This document shows positions 49,063 through 64,000 of a stretch of DNA of 64,000 nt, piece after piece. How positions within the stretch are numbered: the stretch's first letter is position 1; each line of letters opens with the position of its first letter. The stretch lies in NCBI GenBank assembly GCA_030272155.1, contig CP126191.1, positions 6,408,501 to 6,472,500 of the forward strand, given 5' to 3'. The position numbers and the translations under genes are program-made. The stretch is from Tetradesmus obliquus (taxonomy: Eukaryota > Chlorophyta > Chlorophyceae > Sphaeropleales > Scenedesmaceae). The notes beneath the pieces were generated by a model, which had not been told where the DNA came from, searched no databases, and worked only from the letters and a program-made list of their open reading frames with translations.

Positions 49063-52000
49063 ATGGCGTATTCTGCACTTGTGTACTATGCTCTCACAAT
49101 TGTGTTTGTGAGCGCTTTGGCGAAGGGCGTGCACAGTCAGGTTGTCTCTGCCACAGCAGCAGCTGCCACATGGCAAACAGCAGCAGCACAGTATCTGCCC
49201 AGCACAGGGCACTTTGTCAAAGATGGCACCAATCCAGCAGCTGACTGCAGCAATGAAGAACTTTACCAGCTTGTCTTGGACAGCTTGGCATTGCCTACCT
49301 TGGCAATCAACTACACAGTGGCAGTAGGACTGCAAGCACAGGCCTCACAGGCACAGGCAGATACGCTCTTGTTCACTCTCGGTGGCTTTGCGGTGACAGT
49401 CAACAGGCCAGCAGGTATGCACACCTAGTATCACACGCTGTATTGTCACATGTAGACTGAGCTATGCAGCAGCTGATCACAGCGGCACTATCTCTGGTAC
49501 CCAAAGCAAAAGCACACTGCAGCACAATCCTCCCTCCTGTCCCTTTACTTAACTTCTTGCAGGATGGTTGCTCATATCTCGTTCAAATGGAAACTATGCA
49601 CAGTACACAGTAGCAGGCTTGTTAGGCGGCAACAGTGCTGCCAGCTTTCTGGTGTCAGTGGCTGTGGCAGGCGACAGCAGCAGACTCCGCCTGTGCCTCA
49701 ATACAACCTGCCCAACACCATCCAGTGTGAGCTGTACCACCATGCCACAGCTGTACAGCTAGACTCAAAATGTACTGGCCGCATGTGCTTGAAGTGTATT
49801 GCTTCACCTGCTGCCGAGCCAGGTTATGATTCAGCTGTTGGTATGTGTAGCAACAGAGCACTGTAACACCACGTTTCCTTCAAGCACATCTGGCAATGCT
49901 GGCACACTGCAGGTTGCTGGCTTTGATATCGTTGGTGAGGGCTGGGTGCGCCTGTCAGCTGCTGCGGATGGTGCGCTGGGGCTCAGCAGTTTTGCTCTTG
50001 GCAATAGAGCAGGGGCAGGCATGCCTTTCAGCGTGCACAGCATTTGGATGCTTCCCAATGCGGTGGCCATGGACAGACTTGCAGCAGACAGTGGGAACAC
50101 AAGCCTGGATGCTACTCTGACGGCAATGGCAATTGTACCCAGTCCGCCAGCTATAACGCTTGACCCCAGCACTGCTCTCGCTGGCCTGGTGGTGGATGTG
50201 CCAGTCAGGGTAGCAGTGAACGCAATCGCAGGCAGCAGCAACACCACAGCTCTGGGGTTGAAGCTACGCCTCACCTTCTTTGGTGCAAACCCAATGTAAG
50301 GCCAGGTCCAGTCCATGCCATGTATGCCACAAGTTGTGCCAACAGCAACAGGAGCCATGTCTATGGTGTGTGCAGCAGTAGCAGCGGTGTTCGACTGTGC
50401 TGATCACCTTTTGTGTGCCCTGCTGCCCTGCATCTGCTGCACTTTGTTTTCCCAGCAGCTGCAAGCAGAGCAACTGCGGTGATGTTGTGTCAGAGTTCCA
50501 GGCTGTTGGAGGGACTGTGCAAGGCGCAGCAACAGTACAGTACAGCAGAGCAGGCAGGTGAGTTGCTCGCATCTTGAGCAGACTGACCTCAACAGAGACT
50601 CCAACCAAACAGATTCGCCTTGTCTGCTGGCAGCGGGCACTCTCTGGCAAGCAGCACAAGCAGCGGTTTGCTGAGTGCAACACTGCTGACTTGGATATTA
50701 CATATGCCCTGGTGTGCTCTCCTTGGTGCGGCAGGTACATTGTGCGTGCGCAGGCGAGCGACATGATGTCTGGCTGGTCCACCCGGGACATTGAGCTGCT
50801 GGTGCGCAAGGCGGGAGACACACAGGCCAGGGCACCCTGTTGCAGGTGGGCACTGCGCAACAGGCGTGGCTCACTGGGTGTGGAATGGCAGACGCATTGC
50901 ATCACGGACGGCAACACACCACAGCATCACTGCAGCAGTGGACTTCCTGGAGGTTAAAACCCAGCAATGGGTGCTGCCTGTCGCTTGCTGCAGGACGACT
51001 GCCAACATTGTGGCCCTGCAGCTGGGGCGGCCCATAGATCCAAAGCGCTTCCGGCCTGCCTGGCTCAACGTGAGCGCCATGGCTGCCGGCTGGGACTGGG
51101 ACTACCTGCAGGGCCCCGAGGACCTGGAGGCCGAGCGACTGTTTGACTACGGCCTGCTGGCGCCAGTGGACACAGGTGCGCCGCCATCACCGGCTCTGCC
51201 GCCACAACAGCAGCAGCAGCATGTTCAGTGTTTCAGGCTGTTGCCACTGTAGCGGCTTGTAGTGGGATTTCGTGCATCCAGGAGCTGTTGCAACCTGCAA
51301 GAACCCATGGCGGGCCACTGTGCACCAACTCCGGCAGCAGCAGCAGCAGATGTATGGGCAGCCGCAGCCGTGCCTCAATTTAGTGGCCATTACTGCTGAT
51401 TTGCTGTTGTTGTCGCAGGTCCTTGGCGGCGCTTCACCTGTGCTGACAAGTACCTGGCTGGCCCAGGCTCACCGCAAGCATGGGGCACAGCCAGTGGCAA
51501 TGGCATTGGGGCTGCCACCAACCAGGGCAGGAACAAGAGGGTAGCAGTTGTGCCTGAGGGCTTCAGCTGGGCGACTACTGCTGCTGGCTGGGGCCCGCTG
51601 CCCTCATGTGTCACACACTGGTCCAGCTGGGTGGCATCAACCCCGTATGGCAGGGTGAGGCGGCTCGGCAGCAGAGCAGCTGCACTTTTTGTTGCCCTGG
51701 AGTGCGCTGGGTTTACTGCATCTCGCAGCTGGGCTGAGCTAGCCCAAGCTGATGCAATGAAGCAACAAAGCAGTCTGATGCATGTACTGACAGTGCGTTG
51801 CTGCTGCTTCATTTTGTGCTGCATCCAGGTGAACCCTGCCACTGGCGCTACCAGCTGCTCATTCACATGCACGCCTGAGGGAGTGCAGCAGCTGGTGACA
51901 CACACCGGCACGTACGATAGATGGGCGGAAGCTGTCATTGAGAATTCGTATGGCAGGCTGTCGCTGCTGCCAGACCCTGTGGTGCTGCCAACGCTGTACA

Positions 52001-55000
52001 TGCCACAAGGCGCAGCAGCCGGCCAGAATGCTTTTGCGTACAGCGAAACACCTGTCAGCGGGCACGTGCAGGCGCAGGGCTACGATATGTCGAGTGACTT
52101 CCATACTGTGCTGGTGAGTGCGCAGTTGTTGCTCATCCTGTGAATTATGAGATGCTGCTGCAATGACACCAGGCGTGGTGACAGACATGCGCACCTGGCA
52201 TAGGATCCTCTTGCTCTGTTTTGATTGCTTGTTGGGGCCACACCTTTCTCTGAAAGAGAGGCCAATTGCGACAGAAAACAGGATAGTCCTGTGCCCACAT
52301 ACACTGCTCTGTAAGGATCAAGTTGCGCACATGCTGACTGCAGGTGCTGTCACCCCTACCGCGGTTCATCAACACTGGGTTCACGGCATGGGCGAATGCA
52401 GGCGGCTCGCCGCTGATGTTTGTGATGCGCTGCAACCCCCAGCACTACTACCTGGTACGCCGCCGCGCACATCCAGCGCGACAGCTGCCACCAGCTTTTG
52501 CAGCTGCTGCTGTGGTGCTCAGCCATGCTTTTTTATTGGTGCGCAGCAGTCTGTCATGCAAGCCCAATTGCCAGCAGTGCTGGCAACCTCACATGGTGTC
52601 TACTCTTGTTTGAGCAATGCAGCCGCTGCTGTGCAGGTGCATGAGTTTGGCCACCGCGTCGGCATGGCACACGCCACTGCCTACAGGTTAAACGACAGCG
52701 CTGATGCCAAGGTGCGTGTAGCAAGTGCAGCAGCTCGCACGCATCAGCAATCCCCTGTTCTTCAGGCAGCTGCTTGCACACCTGCAAAAAGCTTGAACGC
52801 ACCACACAGGTATGTGCTGCACTACCACTGCTGCAGTGGCACCACCTCCTCCAGGTACCAATCACATTTATGCGCCCAACACCCGTGTCTGCCTGCTGTT
52901 GCATCATAATGATAATGTTATGATGAATCACATCACATTCTGGCTGGCCCGGGCGCTGTCGCGCTGCAGCCGCCCACCTCCCCGCTGGGTCCTGGCGTGA
53001 TGGAGGACACCTACTCCGACCGCCTGGACATGATGGCCTGCTGCAAGGGCGACTACAGCCTGCACAACCGCATTCTCAGCGGCTGGGTGCCGGCTCGTGA
53101 ACGAGTCACACTGTCACTGGCCGACCTCACACCTGCGGCACAACCAGCCAATGGAGCTGCTGCCACGCCGCGTGTGCGGCGTTACAGCTTGTGGCCGTTT
53201 GACAGGCCTGAGTCCAAGGGGCAGCTGAAGGGCGCGAGCCTGCGGCTGGAGGATGGCAAGGTGCTGGTGCTGGGCTTCAGGTGCGCAGGGCTTAATTGAG
53301 CCCTGGCATAGATTGCAACGATACTAACTGCAGAGCATAGACGCGATAATTGCATTGTGGATGGTCAGGTACTCGAAGGAAAATGCTGATCGTGTGAGCC
53401 ATGCAAATGCTGTTGGTTGTCCATAGGCTACTGGCAGTGCTTGGCTAGCATTGAGAGCAACGCCATGCTGCTGCTCTGGCTGCATGCTGTTCAGGTCCAC
53501 ACCCTTCTGGCAGGACGTGCGCATCAAGGCCAACGCCAGCAACCCCTACTCAGAGGAGCGCCCGCTGGCGCCGGAGCACATGCGCAGCAACGTGCAGGGC
53601 CTGTCAGTAGAGTACAGCAAGCGCTACCTGGACGCACCAGGTGGGCTGTAGGCAGAGCTGCCTCAGCCGCACAAGCAGTTACGGTTGCCAAGGACTGCAG
53701 CAGAGGTCATGGTTGTCTTGTAATGTGCCAGCACACCGTGCTGTTTACAAAAAAGGGGATTGCAACATCCATAGCAGCTTGCTGCGTGGGGCCCTGCTTC
53801 TCTTGTGTCAGATGTGCTATGATTGGGCACCACAGCACATGCACGAACATACAAGCAGCTTAATTGTTGCTGCGTGGCCAAACAGCATGCTTGCGTGCTG
53901 CTTCCTCTCCATGAGCTGCGTGTCCATGTGCCCGCTGTCACCAGGCAACATGGCATGGAGCATCAGGGGCCTGCTGGACTTCAACATGGCTTTTGCGCGC
54001 TTCCCTGACGCGCTGCCGCCCACACCCGGGGCCTACCCGCCCAACCCACCTGGTGCTGTGTTCACGCTGCTGCGTGAGGGAGATGCCTTCCTGGATGAGG
54101 AGCACAACCTGCTGCTGGCGGTGGAGAGGATCGCGCAGTGTGCAGAGCAGCCCCTGGTGAGCCGCGGCTCCTCATGCGTGTGTCTTGCTGGAGCACGTGG
54201 GAAAGCAAGGCCAAGTGCTGTTGGTGCAGAGGTGCTGTTGCGGCACCTCAGTCTGGCTGAGCATGTTGCTGTTGCTGAGCTCCGTAGTGATAATGCACAC
54301 TTTCACACTCTCTACTGTATGCTGCGGGCATTCTGCCGGCAGGTGCCAGTGTACAGCTACAGCGTGCCCAACTTCTACGGCTTCCGAGGCGAGAACCCCG
54401 GCGAGGAGGCCAGCAGGCGCGCCGATTATTCGGGCTACGCCGCGGGCATCAAGTGCTTGCAGCTGCGCGTGGTGACGGGCGTCATGGCATCGCCAGGCAC
54501 GCTGGACGCGCGCGTGCAGCTGCAGGGCCTGGACGAGCAGCAGCGCCTGGTGCTGGGCGGGGACCAGGTGAGATGTGCATGCCGTGCAGCAGTGCTGCTG
54601 CATGGCTGATTGCCCCGCCGGGCATGCTGCTGCGTTGCTTACAGGGCATGGGAGGCAGCTGAACGTCCAACACACTGCTACACACAGTAAACACAGCTCA
54701 TGCAACAAGCCTGTTGCAGCTCAAGTGCTCACAAGGCGGAATCTCTTGAGTGCCAAACATCCAACGTAAGGCTGGAAACAGCAGGTGTGAAACGGGCGAG
54801 TTTCCCTGCTGTCGCCCTGCACTGCAGTGTGGCTTCCCTGTTACCCCCAGTCTCCAGCTGGTGCTGCCAGATGGCGTTGAGGTCATCACCATCGTGTGGA
54901 GGGACAACCTGAACAGGACCGTTGCGCTGGACACCACGGCAGTGCAGCTGCCTCCCCTGGCTCCCCTGATGGAGGCATCCGTGGCCAACACGGAGCAGTG

Positions 55001-58000
55001 CAACTCAGGCTGTGACTGGAGCTACCATGTGAGCTGTGGGAGCAGCAGGGGCATGATATAATGCAGTTGCTTGGTCATGGTATTGGGCAATGGTCTGGTC
55101 ATGTGTGCTGCGTGAGATGCTGGGGCTGTCATGCTCCTGCGAAGGCATCCCCACTCCAACTTGTGGCGCAGACGGCAACTTCTGACTGTACAGCTGGTTT
55201 GTTGTCTGGTGCAGGTGAAGATTCTGGCAGCTGATGGTGCTCAGACGCAGATCGACATGTCCTTCAGCAGCGCGTCGCTCAGCGCGCTGCAGATGACTGC
55301 CACCTACTCCTACTACCTCAAGCGCAGCATACTGCAGGCCAGGGAGCTGCACAGCATCCCTGTGGTGCGGCAGCCGCCTCAGCGCACCACATCATCACAG
55401 GGCCAGCAGCTGCTGTCCCAGCCTGCAACACTGGATGCCCTGGCCCAGCAGGTGGGACCCATTACTGCTAGGAGCAACAGCTTTGACAGCGTTGCAGCAT
55501 TCCACATTCGACATCACAGCATCGCAGCCTAAGCGCAAAGCAACAACATGTCACTCGCTTTAATGCAATTGTGGCAATAGTATACAGACATGATACTGTC
55601 GTGTTTTAATGTGTACAAGTCAATGCTGCTTTGCTCGCCTGTGCGCTGCACTGCAGGTGTTTGGTGCCAATGTGATACCTGACAGCACGTGCAGCAAGCA
55701 GTGGTCGCTGTCCCTCAACCTTGACGTGCCTGCATCAGCCTTAGAGGCGCCCAGTGACAGCAGCACCAGACTCACGCAGCTGCTGAAGGTGTATGCTGGT
55801 GACGGCACTGCGCTGAGTGGCGCTGCTGCTCTGGGCTGGCCCACAGTGCACCTCAGAGTGTCACAGGCAGCTGCCACCCTGCTGGTGCAGTGGGGTGACG
55901 GCGCAGCCAACAGCAGGGAGCAAATGGTCAGACTGTCAGCTGGACACAACCATCTGGCCATCGTCCGAGACAAAGACAGGCTAGGTAGGAGAGCAGTAGC
56001 GGGCAGTGCAAGCAGGATGCAGCACAAACAGCAGTTGCACTCGCTGAGCTTGGCTGTGATGTTCAGTGCATAACCTGGATTAAGTTTTCTACATGTGCAC
56101 CTGCTTGCAGGGTTGTGGGTGAACAGCCAGGGCAGCTGGCTGCTGGACAACGTGTGGTGCGTGCCAAGCAGCCAGTACGCGAGCTACTGCAGCAGTGCAC
56201 GGCCCCCCACAGAGTCAACCTTTAGAGCACTCAGGTAACAGAAGGCGCAAGCTGCAAGCCTGAACGATGCATATGCTATCCGCTGTACTGTGTGTGTTGG
56301 GTTTGCCTGGGTAGCTGCTGCAAGATGCTCACCGCAGTTGTTGTCTGTTGTTCCTGGCCACCACTCCCCCGTGCTGCTCTCCGTAGGCTTGGCAGTGCAG
56401 CCAGCAGCAGTGGCATCAGCGTCACCTCTGCCAGGGCATACAACTACGCGCTGCCTCGCCTCAGCCTGGCAAAGGAATCGACCTGCGTGCAGGACAGCAG
56501 CTGCGGCCGCTTCCTGGTGGCAGGCTGGCCACTGCCAGCTGCAGCAGAGGTGCCGCCTGGCAGCATTGACAGACAGGGAGCAGTTCCGTCAGTTGCAAGC
56601 ACACCCATCAGGCTCAACAGCAACGCCTACTACCTGCTGGTGAGGGGGTGTGCTGGGTGGCTGTGCATCTGGCTCACAATTCTGAGCGTAGATAAAGAAA
56701 AGGGGTAGCGTGTGCAGGCATGCAAGCTTGCAGCACCATGCAGGCATGCACTACATGGTGCTGCAGCTGGTGCATGCATATCTGCTTGCACGTACAGAAG
56801 CGCGTTCTGTTGCGCCACCTCCTGTAGTGCATGCGGGAGTCTTTGAGTGCCCATCCTGTGTTGTGTGCTGCCTCCTGTGGCGACCCCGCCTGCTGTGCTG
56901 CAGGTGGGGCCCTGGAGCAACTGCTCAGCCAGGTGTGGCGGCGGCTGGGCCAGCCGGGAGGTGCGCTGCATGCGGGTGGGCGGCCGCGGCTCCCCGCCTG
57001 CACAGGTGCCGCTGGAGGAGTGCCCACTGGGTGAGTGGCGTGGAGATGTGCAGCGAGGTGTGGTCTGTCTTTATAGAGTACCACCAGATCTGCACCTTGC
57101 CCAGCCATGGCTGTAAACTCAGACGGTGTAAACTCAAATGGTGTAAGCTTCAGTTGATGATACAGGTAGCTGCAGGCACTGCCTGTGTCTCTGAAAGCCG
57201 TGTGACTGCTGCTGCTGCTACTGATTTCAAACTTTCACTGGCGCCATGCTTCACTGCGTTGCAGCCGAGGAGGTGCCTGTTGGCTCGAGGCAGTGCAACA
57301 CTGCGGCCTGCCCCTCGCAAGCCCTGCATGTGCTGGCCAGCGAGCACAGCAGCTGCGGCAGGGGCTGCACGGTGCTTGGCTCGGAGGCAGATGGCGGCCA
57401 GCTCGTGTGCATCAACTCCCTGGGGTGAGCCAGCTGCTGCCATCTGCATGCAGCCTGCAGTCAGAGGCGTTGTTGGCTGCGGGTCACACAACGCCAACTC
57501 CTGTACTATCAATGGCCTGTTGCATTACTGGCTGTCCAGGCTCTGTGGACTCAGGCGGCAACACGCCTCTTGCTAAAGACAAAACCACTGTCCTCCAAAT
57601 GCCTGGCATTGCTGTGGTAGCACTCCAAAGCACTCACGCGGCTGCACCCTTGTTAACCATGCATGCAGGCAAGTGCAACCTCTGGCCCAATGCTGCGAGT
57701 CCTGCAGCAGCAGCACAGACTGGACAAGCATCCAGTGGAGCAGCAGTGCCAGCTCACTGCCCCCATTCAGCAGTGCTAGCTTAGGTAGCGGCGTGCGGGC
57801 CTTGCAGCCAGCTGGCAAAGTGCCACGCAACGCATCACTGGCCACTGTGGTGATGCAGGGCGGTTTGTCCAATGTATGTCAGGCACGCGACAAGTGCAGT
57901 GACGGGGTGCGCTGGCAGCTGGGCGGGTGGTCTCCTTGCAGCACGTCATGTGGTGGTGGCTACAAGAGGAGGTCAGCTACGTGCGTCAGCGTCACAGGTG

Positions 58001-58103
58001 GGTGCGCACTGTGCGCTGCCATGGTGTGCTGCCACAGCATCAGTTATTATATGCATTTCCATTATGCCGTCACGCCTGTAGCTGAGCACATATGATTTGC
58101 TTG

Positions 58104-58136
<33 letters not shown>

Positions 58137-61100
58137 AGGGGACGCTGTGTCAGAGCAGCAGTGCATCAAGAGCCTGGGTGGTGTGCCAAGCGAGCTGCTG
58201 ACAGCAGAGTGCGCCAGCCGGCCGTGCCTCCTGCACACCTGGAAGGTGGGGTGCTGCCCGCTGCGGCAACGACATACAACACTCTTGCTGGGTTGTTATC
58301 ACCGCCCTACCTGCCATGGCTACCTTCCAATGCCTCAGCCAGCAGCTGCTGTTTCCTGTGCATGGTACACTGTTACGCTGTGAGCGGCAAACTCTGGGAT
58401 GTGCCTTTATTGCAATGCACCACTGCTGCTGTACCAGGTGTCTGCTTGGAGCACTTGTGGTGGCGATGCCAGCTTTGGCCATGCCAGCAGGTCCGTCCAC
58501 TGCGTCAGCAGCCATGGCACCAGCACATCCCCAGTAGATGAGTCACGCTGCAAGTCAGCGCCGCCCGCAAAGTCAGTCACCTGCTTGCAGCTCTCACAGT
58601 CGGCAATCTGCAGGCCCGGCTTTGTAGCCGACACAGCGTTTGCAGCACAGGACTGCGTTGGCCACGGCAGCTGCACCATGAACGGCTGCCAATGTGAGGC
58701 TGGCTGGCATGGGCAGTTCTGCGAGGTGCCCGACAGCTGTGCCGGCGTCATGACAAAGTCAGACAAGTGCTGTGCCAGCGGCGTGCTGGATGTGCAAGGC
58801 GCCTGCTGCGATTATGGGGCTGTGCTTGACAGCTGGGGAGCCTGCTGTGCAGCGGGGCGGGTGGACAAGTGCGGCAAGTGTGGCGGCAGCAGCTGGACGG
58901 TGGACATCACAGTGAGTGCTGCTGGCTAAATGTGGACATGATGACGATGATTGAGTTCTGCTGGCTGGCAGGGCGGCGGCATCTGGGCGCTCGAAACGTT
59001 AGACAGTGGCGCAGCGATGCATGCACTTTGTGTGCCTGTGTGCTGAGGCAGTCTCATGCAGTACGGAGCAGTATCTTCATGCCATGGCGGTGCTGTGCTT
59101 GGTGGGAGTTCTCTGCATTGCATCTGCTCAGTCTGAGAAAGTCGCTGCTGCTGCTTCTGCTGCTGCTGTGCAGGGGGCCTGTTGCAGCTCTGTGCTGGAT
59201 GCGCTTGGCACGTGTTGCCTGTCTGGCGCCGTTGACGAGTGTGGTGTCTGTGATGGTGACAGCACCAGCTGCAGCTTGCACCTGCGCCTGCTGATGCAGC
59301 TGCCGAACAACACAGACATCACCCCTGGAGCAGCTGCATCGAGCAGTTGGCGTGCAGGCTTGGTGACAATGCTGCAGTCAGCATACCAGCAAGTGCAGGC
59401 AGCAGCAGCCATGCAGCAGCAGTTGCAGGTGCTGCAAGTGTCCGCAAAGTGGGCTCTGACAGCCGCAGCAGCAAACCAGCTGCTGCCAAGCAGGCATTTG
59501 CTGTCAGTTGATGAGGTTGACCCCAGCACAGCAGCACCGCCAGAACACAGCAGCCTCTGCCCACGGCAGTCTGAGGATAACAGCTTATTCATTAGCAGCA
59601 GTATTTGCAGTTCAGAGAGCAGCGCAAGACAGCAAACAGCACCAGACAATGCAGCCGCTGCTGAACCTAGCAGTGCCAGACGCCTGCAGGCAGCAGCAGT
59701 GCTTGCAAGTGGTTGGCAAGCCGCTATCGTAGAAGTGTCAGTGGCGTTGCCCAGCAATGCTGGCAGCTCGTTTGGAACCAATGCTGGTGCTGAAGGCATG
59801 GGTGTGCTGCAGCTTGGCTATGCCCTAGTGTCCGAGCTGCTGCTGCAAACGGATCCAGGGCAGGCACCGGCTGGTGACGGCAGTGCAGAGCTGCAGCTGC
59901 AGGAGGTGCTGCTCGTGCAGCGGCTGGGTGTGTGTGGCAACGGGCTGTGCGAGGTTGGGGAGCGGGCATTGCTGAATGCTGCTGCTGAGGCGATCAAAGA
60001 GGCTGCTGCTCCATGTCCCCAGGTGAGATGCGGGGCGGGTGGGAGGCGGCTTGCCAGCACTAGCATCGCCAGCTCACACAGCATTGCAGGCCGGTGCGGC
60101 AACCATCATGAAAGCCTGGCCTTTGCCAGTCATCACAGGGTGTAACGGCAGCTGCAAGACAAGAGGATGGCATGACAAGAGAATGGCATCGATTGTACAG
60201 GCGCTGTCCCATGAAGATACACAGGCTGTATCAGCTTGTGCTGGCTCAACCTGTCAAGCTAACAGTGGTGTGCACTAAACCTCACCTGCAGGACTGCCCC
60301 TTGAGCTTCTCCATGTGCCCAGCACCCCTGGGGCCTGTGGGTGACAGGACAGCCGAGTGTGGCGGCAACGGCAGGTGCATCCGCAGCCAGCGCGTCTGCG
60401 ACTGCTTCACTGGGTGAGCTGAGCGCTGGCAAGCTGGCTGAAGCTTGCAGGCAGTGCAGCGTTGTCTGCTCGTAATACTACGATGACTTGAGACGAGATT
60501 TGTTCCCATGCCAGCATTAGACTGCTGCTCTGCCGCAACTAAGTGCGACACGTGTGTGCTGCACTTGCTGCAGGTATGGCGGGGACGCGTGTGAGCAGTG
60601 CCTTGCAGGCTTTTGGCCTCACAAGGGCCGCTGTGTGCCGCAATACATCAAGGTGACAAGCAAGCCGTTGTTGTCAGCAGCTCATGGCAGCGTCACAGCA
60701 CTGGAGCTGTGGCTGTTGCTGCAGCAATTTGCGTTGTAGCTGCAGCTTGTTTTGGCAGTGCGTCAGACTGGGTCCACTGGAAAGGCGCGGGGCAGAGGCT
60801 TGCTGCATGTTCAATTTGTGCGTAACGGTGTGCTGCTCTGGCTGTTGGCTGCACTCTGTGCTTGCAGGGCCGCAACATCTTTGACCCTCTCACCCTCGAG
60901 GGAGATGACAAATTTGCAGGTGCAGTGGAACTTAGGGCTGCTAGAAAGCTACTGGTCCCAGCGGCCTGCATGCTGCCTGCCTGCCAGTTTAACATGCTTA
61001 TGCATTCCACTAAACACAGCGCCATACACATTGCATACACCGCAATTGCTGTGGCCGCGCCACCGCACAATCAGAACTCCACACAGCAGCAATCCTTGCT

Positions 61101-64000
61101 CTGTCGTCCAAACTGGATGCCTGACATGCTGCCGGCTTGCTACCCTCCTGCAGGCCTCACCCTCCTAGTCATCGGCACTGTGGCTGGCGCAGCTGCCCTG
61201 GGCAGCTTGGTGTGGGTGCTGTGGCGCTGGCTGGCCCTGGGCCGCGTGCCAAAGCCAGTCGTGGCCCTGCGGCGGCTGGCGCGTGCCATGCGTGCTGCAA
61301 CAATCGACGGCGCTGCCGCAGCGCCTCCTGACACCAGCGTCAGCAAGAAGCACCTGCTGGATGTTGAGCTGGAGCTGACTGGCAAGCCCAGGCGCAGGAG
61401 CCATGCGGGAGGCATTGAGGACGCTGCAGCATGGAGCAAGGTGCGGATAAGCATTCGGCAGGGTGATGCAAAGCACGTGGCTGCTGCTTGGCCGGTGCCT
61501 GCCTGCTTGTGGCTTAACGACGACATCAACGGCTGCACAAAATCTGCCTGGCCGGGGCATCTATTGCAGTGGTTTGTTAGTAGCCAGGTGATACAAAACT
61601 CTACTGCAATACGGTGTTGCCGCTGCCACCGCTGCTGTGTTGTGGTGTGCGCAGCGCCCATCCTTGCGGCACCGCTACACACTCGGGGGCGCTGGGGCAG
61701 AGGCTGAGGGCGGTGATGGGGACCTGCTCAAGGCCATCAGGTGAGGCAGCACCTCTGCGCGACAACTGTCTTCAGCTCCCATGTCGCTTCCGGTTGAGCT
61801 GGCTGCTAGGCAGTCTCGAGACTGGATCTGTCTGCTGCTGTGGCTGTGGGGTTGCTTTCAATGTTCCCGACAGTGATGTGCATGCAGGGACAGCTCATCC
61901 ACCAAAACAGCCGTTGCCAGCGCCTGCATGCTGCTTGTCATGGCTATTCGTAGCTCATGATTGTGCTGCTACTTTCGTGGCTGCCGCCGCCTGTGCTACT
62001 GCCCTCAGGTCCAACATGCTTGAGGAGGCTGATGGACCTGAGCTGCCACCCTCCCCAACCAAAAACCGTTTATCCCAGATGCTGGGGCAGAGACGCACCA
62101 CTGCAGGTGGCAGCGTGTACAGCAGCCTTGGTGGAGGAGTGGAGCAGGCAGCACGGCCCTCGGCTGCTGGCGCGGTTGCTAAGCGGCTATCAGAGGTGTA
62201 CGGCAGCATCCAGCGAGGCGTGTCAGAAGCTGGCAGCGGCATTGCACGTGCGGTGTCCAGCAGTGTCAGCCGGCTGACGAGTGCGGGCAGCGGCTACGAG
62301 CGCATGCGGTTTGCGGATGATGAGGGCGATGGCCTGCTGCGTGGCAGCATGGCAGGCTCGGAGCTTGCAGGCCTTGATGAGGAGCTGGACTCCAGCCAGA
62401 TTACCCCTGAGTTTGGCAGGGCAGATGCTGAGCTGCCGCTGGCTGGTGCAGATGGCGTGGCAGCAGGCAGCGCAAGGGATGCGGGAGGGCTGGCTGCTGT
62501 TGATGATGCAGCACCACTGCTGGCTGGGGCAGGGCCTTCGTCAGACAGCGGGGCTGCAGCAGCAGCAGCAGCAGCGGCCTCGCCTCTGAGTTTGGGCATG
62601 CCAGGTATGCCACGGCTGGCACGCATCAAGACGCGCACAGACAGGCGCTCCAACAGCGGCGCAGGCGCAGCAGCAGCTGCCGCTGTAGCTGCAGTGGATG
62701 GCTGGCAGAGAGGTGGAGCAGCACAGGGCAGCAGCAGCGGGCTGTCCAGGCTTGGAGGAGCCGCCAACAGCAGCAGCGGCGGCAGTGGCGCTGCTGCAGC
62801 AGTCCATCCCGGCCAAGCAGCATCCTTTGCTGCAGGTGCTGCCTTGCGTCAGCCTGCCTCTGCTGATGCGGCAGGCATGCCACGAGTGCCTAGCTGGGTC
62901 ACGCGCGCAGACTACCAGGCAACACTTGCGTCAAGCAGCAGCCCCTTGGCCCCTGCACATGTGCTGGCGCAGGCCAGGGGCAGGCGCTCGCCCTCAGAGC
63001 CCGGGGCTAGGCCGCTGCAGCAGCGCAGCGAGGCAGGCCGCGTGCCGGAGTTTGTGGCAACGCCGCTGTCAGGCCATGACGCAACCAACAGGTGGGCAGC
63101 ACAATGCGTGACACACAGTTGTGACTGCATTGACATCATTTGCACACTTCAGGGCTATCCTTTGGCATGTGAAGTGCTGCGGACATGTACACCTTGCGCT
63201 GCTTCAGGCTTGATGCAGGCCAACGTGCAGATAGCACCTGCCACCATGGCAGACACAGATCATCAACAGATCCTAATACCATGTTGTGACTTGAGCAGAC
63301 AAGCGGTGTATATCTCTGCGCTGCAGGAACGCTGTTGAGCACTTTGGCCACCGCATGGAGCGCTGGTTCAGCCCCAGCAACCCCACCAGCATGGATGGCA
63401 GCTGGTCCAGGGACCCCAGCACACCTGGCGGCATGGCACCACTGGCAGCACTCTCCAGCGCAGCACTGCCAGAGGACGCTGCAGCAGAGGAACAGGCACA
63501 GCACGAGGCTGCAGCACCAGCAGCAGCAGCAGCAGCAGCATTTAACCCTTTTGCACCTGCTGGCTCTTCATCCGTCGCTGCAGCTGCAGCAGGTGCAGGT
63601 CCTGGTCAGGCTGTTGCTGGCCGAGCACCGTCCATGGTGCTACGCCTGCCAGTGAGCACGGCAGCAGCGTCAGGGCTGGGGCCCCGTGCTGGCAGCGGCA
63701 CAGGGCTGCTGCTGTCGCCAGGCAGCAGCCCCCGCATGCTGCCAGGCTCGTGGCAGAGCACAGGCGGCGGCAGCCATCATGTTCAAAGCAGTGCTGCTGC
63801 CTGGCAGGCTGCGCAGCGAGGGGTGGCTGCTGGCCACACAGCAGCAGCAGCAGCCTCCCAGCCAGGGACTCCTGGTGCCGTGCATGTCTCGCTGGAGCAC
63901 CTGCCGTCATTGCCGTCTGATCTAGGGATGTCGCGCCAGCACAGCGGCGTTGAGGGTTTGGGTGCTGAGCAGAGCAGCCAACTGCAGTTGCCAGCACAGC
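49063..64000 (+). CDS. Giant modular transmembrane M11 (gametolysin-type) metalloprotease with thrombospondin-1 repeats (3' end outside window)
   Basis: Thirty-two exons join with every junction in phase into over 2,820 codons still open at the edge. Order: signal peptide (MAYSALVYYALTIVFVSALA); beta-rich N-terminal region (about 30-520); M11 domain (about 520-790) with zinc site HEFGHRVGMAH (661-671) and MMACCKGDYSLHNRILSGWV as Met-turn segment; unrecognised ectodomain (about 790-1350); TSP1 repeats at about 1356 (WSNCSARCGGG), 1533 (WSPCSTSCGGG) and 1596 (WSTCGG); EGF-like module (GHGSCTMNGCQCEAGWHGQFC); paired CC-x-G-x-LD-x-x-G-x-CC modules with VDECGVCDGD; second EGF-like pair (CGGNGRC, YGGDACEQC); one transmembrane helix (about 2121-2145); Ser/Ala-rich cytosolic tail. 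Gametolysins digest algal cell-wall hydroxyproline glycoproteins; this one should act at the cell surface. A separate-gene explanation would need the splice phases to agree by chance. Confidence 0.88.
57109..57154. repeat. Three tandem 15-16-bp units in an intron
   Basis: Three imperfect units of the form GGTGTAAACTCAAAT follow one another inside the intron between the exons ending at 57030 and starting at 57265. The unit includes TGTAA. No function evident. Confidence 0.7.
58104..58137. repeat. (CTG)n run forming a splice acceptor tract
   Basis: About eleven CTG units run directly into the CAG acceptor of the exon starting at 58139 in the metalloprotease gene, replacing a conventional polypyrimidine tract. 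Confidence 0.85.

Follow-up and report, generated by a model that had tools for sequence, protein, structure and literature searches.

A spliced reading frame in Tetradesmus obliquus that joins a metzincin-like protease to a TSP1-EGF-CGVC membrane module

Does this locus of the green alga Tetradesmus obliquus encode, in one gene, a zinc protease coupled to TSP1 repeats in the manner of the ADAMTS enzymes of animals, and where would its parts have come from? The initial annotation of the window (the whole stretch of 64,000 bases analysed here) had proposed an independently arisen, ADAMTS-like, membrane-anchored TSP1 protease. The frame, the modules and the anchor stood up to analysis, but the M11 label given to the protease and the claim of an unrelated fold did not. 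The explanation that we consider probable as a whole is that a single T. obliquus gene arose by fusion of two green-algal gene families.

One frame of 32 exons

A Viterbi gene model, with its start fixed at ATG 49063 and its introns restricted to GT-AG, gave a single open spliced frame of 32 exons and 2,860 aa that ends at TAG 64128, a stop lying 128 bases beyond the window end and read from the genome sequence past it. The continuous 32-exon frame described earlier was thereby borne out. The real sequence scored 302.7, compared with at most 0.7 for 20 dinucleotide shuffles (first ATG of each) and 2.5 for the highest-scoring of the first six ATGs on the reverse strand, a margin that is partly circular because exons picked by hand from the same gene had seeded the codon table. 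All 31 introns are GT-AG by construction, and CAG acceptors, a scored preference, occur in 31 of 31. For exons 2 and 22 the longer in-frame acceptor was chosen manually as the start; the model without that step has 2,829 aa.

As judged from sequence comparison, homology confirms the frame independently of the coding score. Exon 8 is supported by P0014, and exons 17-18 by P0015 and P0016, all members of the protease family described below. The NCBI protein OEZ86_011660 (P0001, 1,233 aa), from the same locus, matches at 100% and also joins protease and TSP1 parts. It begins at residue 244 of the model, omits exons 4, 8, 18 and 19, has a shorter exon 17 and stops in intron 24. Cut at both ends and with four exons omitted, this record is without the signal peptide, the CGVCDGD motif and the membrane helix. 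The features of the encoded protein, in window coordinates, are as follows.

49063..64000 (on to TAG 64128), plus strand: gene model, 32 exons, 2,860 aa (Viterbi model; P0001 covers part)
49063..49137, plus strand: putative signal peptide MAYSALVYYALTIVFVSALAKGVHS, aa 1-25 (by eye; hydropathy)
49063..56232, plus strand: part assigned to a Pfam-less algal protease family, aa 1-1260, exons 1-18 (BLASTP to P0013-P0027; homology demonstrated for about aa 62-1249)
50240..50786, plus strand: PKD-like stretch, aa 282-350 (Pfam E 0.04, below cut-off)
52640..52672, plus strand: zinc site HEFGHRVGMAH, aa 643-653 (HExGHRLGFxH in 10 of 10 members of alignment A3)
53027..53044, plus strand: Met-turn-like DMMACC, aa 686-691 (M and CC invariant in 10 of 10 of A3)
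56396..56639, plus strand: exon 19, resembling the post-protease-domain segment of P0015 and P0016 (alignment with shuffles)
56640..56903, plus strand: intron 19, 264 bases, proposed junction of two ancestral genes
56904..57311, plus strand: TSP1 repeat 1, aa 1343-1400, split by intron 20 (PF19030)
57907..58227, plus strand: TSP1 repeat 2, aa 1518-1577, split by intron 22 (PF19030; limits by eye)
58234..58587, plus strand: TSP1 repeat 3, marginal, aa 1580-1633, split by intron 23 (place and limits by eye)
58648..58740, plus strand: EGF-like module 1, aa 1654-1684 (PF23106, E 7e-5, 23.3 bits against a cut-off of 24.3)
58756..59272, plus strand: cysteine repeats CC.SGVLD..G.CC.SG..D.CG.C.G with CGKCGG and CGVCDGD (59240-59260)
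59930..60297, plus strand: VCGNGLCEVGER...CPQDC motif, aa 1994-2026
60352..60637, plus strand: EGF-like module 2, aa 2045-2086 (PF00053, E 0.00097, under cut-off)
61159..61221, plus strand: transmembrane helix TLLVIGTVAGAAALGSLVWVL, aa 2111-2131 (hydropathy 2.06, the highest of the whole protein)
61222..64000, on to 64125, plus strand: low-complexity Ala/Ser/Gly-rich tail, aa 2132-2860

Several elements of the initial annotation recur here unchanged, among them the CGVCDGD motif and the single transmembrane helix, and the cytosolic tail, put at 680 residues or more, has 729 aa in the completed model. The proposed signal peptide looks like one, but was judged by eye and hydropathy only.

A protease family without a catalogued domain

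The protease part belongs to an algal family without a Pfam domain (P0001 and P0013-P0027 among the matches listed), with members in T. obliquus, Micractinium tetrahymenae, Micractinium sp. CCAP 211/92, Nannochloris, Chlorella vulgaris and eleven further records. In BLASTP, Micractinium ABPG75_011635 (P0015) was 36% identical over aa 378-1249, and Micractinium ABPG77_007169 (P0016) was 35% identical over aa 270-1247. P0014-P0027 are co-linear with the T. obliquus protein over approximately aa 62-1249, through the zinc site, at 25-43% identity, whereas those reaching the C terminus end in a membrane helix and tail of their own and, unlike the T. obliquus protein, have no TSP1. A C-terminal stretch with hydropathy of at least 1.6 occurs in 9 of 15 relatives; five others are fragments, and P0015 has only an Ala-rich predicted helix at its C terminus. 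The TSP1 motif WS.C[ST]..C was found in 0 of 15 of P0013-P0027, and Pfam TSP1 in 1 of 16 family proteins scanned, which was P0001 itself; a weak PKD match is present in 3 of 16. With P0014 as query, the protease gave six matches in the T. obliquus genome (104.66 Mb, 17 contigs), all at this locus on contig C1.

Judged by its motifs, the protease is metzincin-like. HExGHRLGFxH is present in 10 of the 15 proteins P0013-P0027, the remaining five being fragments that do not cover the zinc site, and the three His, the Glu, the Met and the following CC are kept in all ten members of A3. The zinc ligands, Glu and Met are also intact in the T. obliquus protein, in which the second Met of DMMACC follows the third His of the zinc site by 35 residues. 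This retention argues against an inactive remnant serving as an adhesion or receptor ectodomain, a reading that we regard as very unlikely, even though activity is purely predicted and module proteins without a protease look receptor-like.

Whether the protease is a true but distant M11 gametolysin that gained a TSP1 module, an origin compatible with fusion, is harder to judge, and we consider this possible but doubtful. The initial annotation had named the protease M11, which the Pfam search did not bear out: PF05548 gave no match within aa 381-1080 at E ≤ 1 and none in 16 family members at E ≤ 10, and its matches over cut-off in the T. obliquus genome lie only elsewhere, on C9, C7 and C5 (L001-L004). 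We therefore rejected M11 as a settled label. Like gametolysin and the other M11 enzymes (Chlamydomonas MMPs), the protein has HExxHxxGxxH with a downstream Met, a combination common to other metzincins as well, together with Y.D..M.C..GW, an occurrence in green algae and perhaps wall substrates; it differs from them in the missing PF05548 match, the membrane anchor and the TSP1 module. In favour of a distant M11 origin, hhalign of the family against a three-sequence T. obliquus M11 profile gave a probability of 82 (E 1.1e-5), with an alignment running through HExGHxxGxxH, Y.D, M.C and GW. Against each M11 sequence singly the values were 70, 34 and 55, and against reprolysin 14 over 20 columns, but the control pair of M11 and reprolysin itself scored 91, so the hhalign score does not discriminate between families.

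A model of a family relative had a poor catalytic fold, with pLDDT 31-41 over the zinc helix, and the best matches of this low-confidence catalytic part were reprolysins; the earlier view that the reprolysin fold of ADAMTS is unrelated to the algal protease was not borne out. The structural matches listed for the relative's model included no M11 structure, which excludes nothing. Foldseek with the first model gave 0 matches at E ≤ 0.001, and the second model, also poor in its catalytic part, matched beta-sandwich domains of many kinds. PDB sequence searches with alignments A1 and A3 returned no protease among the matches listed, NCBIfam on five family members returned just two sub-cut-off matches, both outside the protease part, and a prokaryote scan with two peptide patterns gave 51 pattern matches and no relative, which is weak evidence of absence.

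A membrane module shared among green algae

The second half of the protein follows a layout found in other green algae. Pfam matched TSP1_ADAMTS (PF19030) at E 5.2e-20 with three stretches at E ≤ 1, in agreement with the three repeats first described; two of them passed the cut-off individually in a six-frame search, in which the marginal third was absent as a separate match. The EGF-like modules found support in PF23106 and PF00053, although the best matches fell just under the curated Pfam cut-offs. Identity reached 38% both to Micractinium ABPG75_013895 (P0003) and to Apatococcus P0002 over approximately aa 1520-1784. The order TSP1-EGF-CGVC-CGNG-EGF-TM is common to Apatococcus P0002, Micractinium P0003, Prototheca P0007, P0008 and P0009, and the cysteine repeats align in the same five proteins, so CGVCDGD is part of the cysteine repeat of the algal module.

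What precedes the module varies. Micractinium ABPG75_013895, Apatococcus WJX84_004417 and Prototheca QBZ16_000663 share the TSP1-to-helix order of the T. obliquus protein, and algal membrane proteins of this kind have, unlike it, no such protease in front. The Prototheca protein has a NatC-subunit part before the module, which may be an annotation merger. A second T. obliquus module gene lies at C12:2966616-2960708 on the minus strand (L016-L019); from an assumed start, its 8 exons encode approximately 1,349 aa that include a membrane helix and a short tail but no protease. P0008 (1,838 aa) and P0009 (1,867 aa) carry an S8 subtilase ahead of the same module, suggesting that it is reusable. We tentatively propose, at somewhat less than even odds, that the module was joined more than once to different proteases in green algae, in the case of Tetradesmus to a metzincin of a new family and in that of another lineage to a subtilase. 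If so, tethered, TSP1-guided wall proteases would be a repeated invention outside animals. PMC8643629 and PMC11638089 describe Chlamydomonas wall proteases, both M11 enzymes and the S8 sporangin, as opening gamete and mother walls; P0008 and P0009 would combine the module with this other wall-lytic protease class. Knockouts of MMP1, MMP3 and MMP13 have a palmelloid phenotype in common (PMC11638089).

Other comparisons of the module were less informative. A PDB sequence search with the TSP1 and cysteine part found only reelin (E 0.0076) among the matches listed, and a tree of nine module sequences, with 1 of 6 inner branches starred and long branches, led nowhere. A tail motif that by eye seemed common to T. 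obliquus, Prototheca and Micractinium was rejected by shuffle tests: z values were -0.1 to 1.9 for the full-length T. obliquus tail compared with four others, with 17 to 168 of 300 shuffles reaching the score, and its last 300 residues against three others were equalled by 200 to 845 of 1000 shuffles. Tail similarity was significant only for P0003 against P0007 (0 of 300 shuffles).

The joint and its likely meaning

The halves are separate genes in M. tetrahymenae, in which the protease lies on a contig of 5,583,046 bases and the module on another of 8,844,789 bases. Exons 17-18 of the T. obliquus gene align with the last part of the Micractinium protease, exon 20 is TSP1, and exons 19 and 20 lie 264 bases apart. 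Exon 19 shows a modest likeness to the protease family. Against the following segment of P0015 and P0016, 25 and 23 of 2000 shuffles, respectively, reached its score; among eight other family members only P0021 came near (9 of 500 shuffles), the other seven giving 114-499 of 500. Against four pre-TSP1 segments of module proteins exon 19 showed no resemblance (840-1945 of 2000 shuffles).

We think it quite likely that both halves belong to a single gene with one transcript. It is unlikely that there are two adjoining genes, a soluble protease with its stop at 56238 in intron 18 and a TSP1-module gene whose ATG lies at 56325, although the best non-overlapping split scored 302.1, with the second gene uncharged, against 302.7 for one gene, and the halves are separate genes in Micractinium. 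Coding score alone cannot separate one gene from two abutting genes. The split would have to fit the 3' end of one gene and the promoter and 5' UTR of the next into just 87 bases. It would start the second gene ahead of the segment that modestly resembles the protease family, with an N terminus, MLTAVVVCCSWPPLPRAALRR, that by eye makes a poor signal peptide. The NCBI model OEZ86_011660 also splices across the joint, with exons other than those of our model. The algal poly(A) signal TGTAA, a short word that occurs in introns of the same gene too, gives a weak sign in the same direction: there is none between 53719 and 57112, and hence none in the 87-base gap, with three shortly downstream of the first TSP1 exon, in intron 20 (57112, 57127 and 57142), and one at 64479 after the stop. 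A plasmid search with 53000-57000 found nothing.

On the reading of a single gene, the new element appears to be the joint of protease and module in one frame. The initial annotation had proposed a search of other chlorophytes for the same domain order; the protein searches, each covering up to 8,000 candidates, showed the halves in separate genes, and no second species with this fusion was among the matches listed. Searches of the open-access literature, judged by titles and the starts of abstracts, found no report of this protease-TSP1 architecture among the papers listed.

ADAMTS enzymes carry a CGVC.GD cysteine motif, and the T. obliquus protein resembles them in that motif, in its three-His zinc site and in its TSP1 repeats (Pfam TSP1_ADAMTS). 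By sequence it is nevertheless an analogue of ADAMTS and not a member, since it departs from them in three membership features. A Pfam search of aa 1-2109, in four pieces at E ≤ 1, gave neither a disintegrin domain nor the spacer or cysteine-rich domain of ADAMTS. Its protease probably belongs to a family other than the M12B family of ADAMTS, although the low-confidence catalytic model of the relative matched reprolysins best. PMC4448532 places the Met-turn of ADAMTS 14-20 residues after the third His, compared with 35 here, and describes ADAMTS without EGF, transmembrane or cytoplasmic modules, whereas the T. obliquus protein has EGF-like modules, a membrane helix and a tail.

The fusion that we favour would have had as one partner a member of the metzincin-like family, mostly membrane-anchored, whose own helix and tail were lost at the joint. 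The other would have been the TSP1-EGF-CGVC-EGF-helix-tail module, found elsewhere alone or behind other N-terminal parts. The product would enter the secretory membrane, with an ectodomain that sets the HExxHxxGxxH zinc protease above three TSP1 repeats and the cysteine-rich modules. These may bind wall or matrix glycoproteins, so that cutting would stay confined to the surface of the cell itself, and the long tail may anchor or signal. A likely job would be local wall remodelling, in autospore release or mating.

If this is correct, the design of a zinc protease with TSP1 guidance arose outside animals through gene fusion, and both ancestral halves survive as separate genes in a living relative. 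With two separate Micractinium genes named as partners, the assembly of such enzymes would become a testable comparison. The analysis also exposes an uncatalogued, mostly membrane-anchored algal protease family, whose members are candidate wall-cutting enzymes of economically used algae.

Three further observations concern another protein, the joint itself and the surroundings of the locus. P0012, of 2,288 aa, combines a reprolysin-type zinc site with several TSP1 matches, an ADAMTS-like layout possibly outside animals. Read-through of the exon 19 donor (56640-56708) would add LVRGCAGWLCIWLTILSVDKEKG and then a stop, and a transcript retaining this intron would yield a protease that stops short of TSP1. 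Downstream genes on the minus strand (at approximately 1650-2740 and 4000-8000 of L005) resemble, by eye, 6-phosphogluconolactonase and kinesin.
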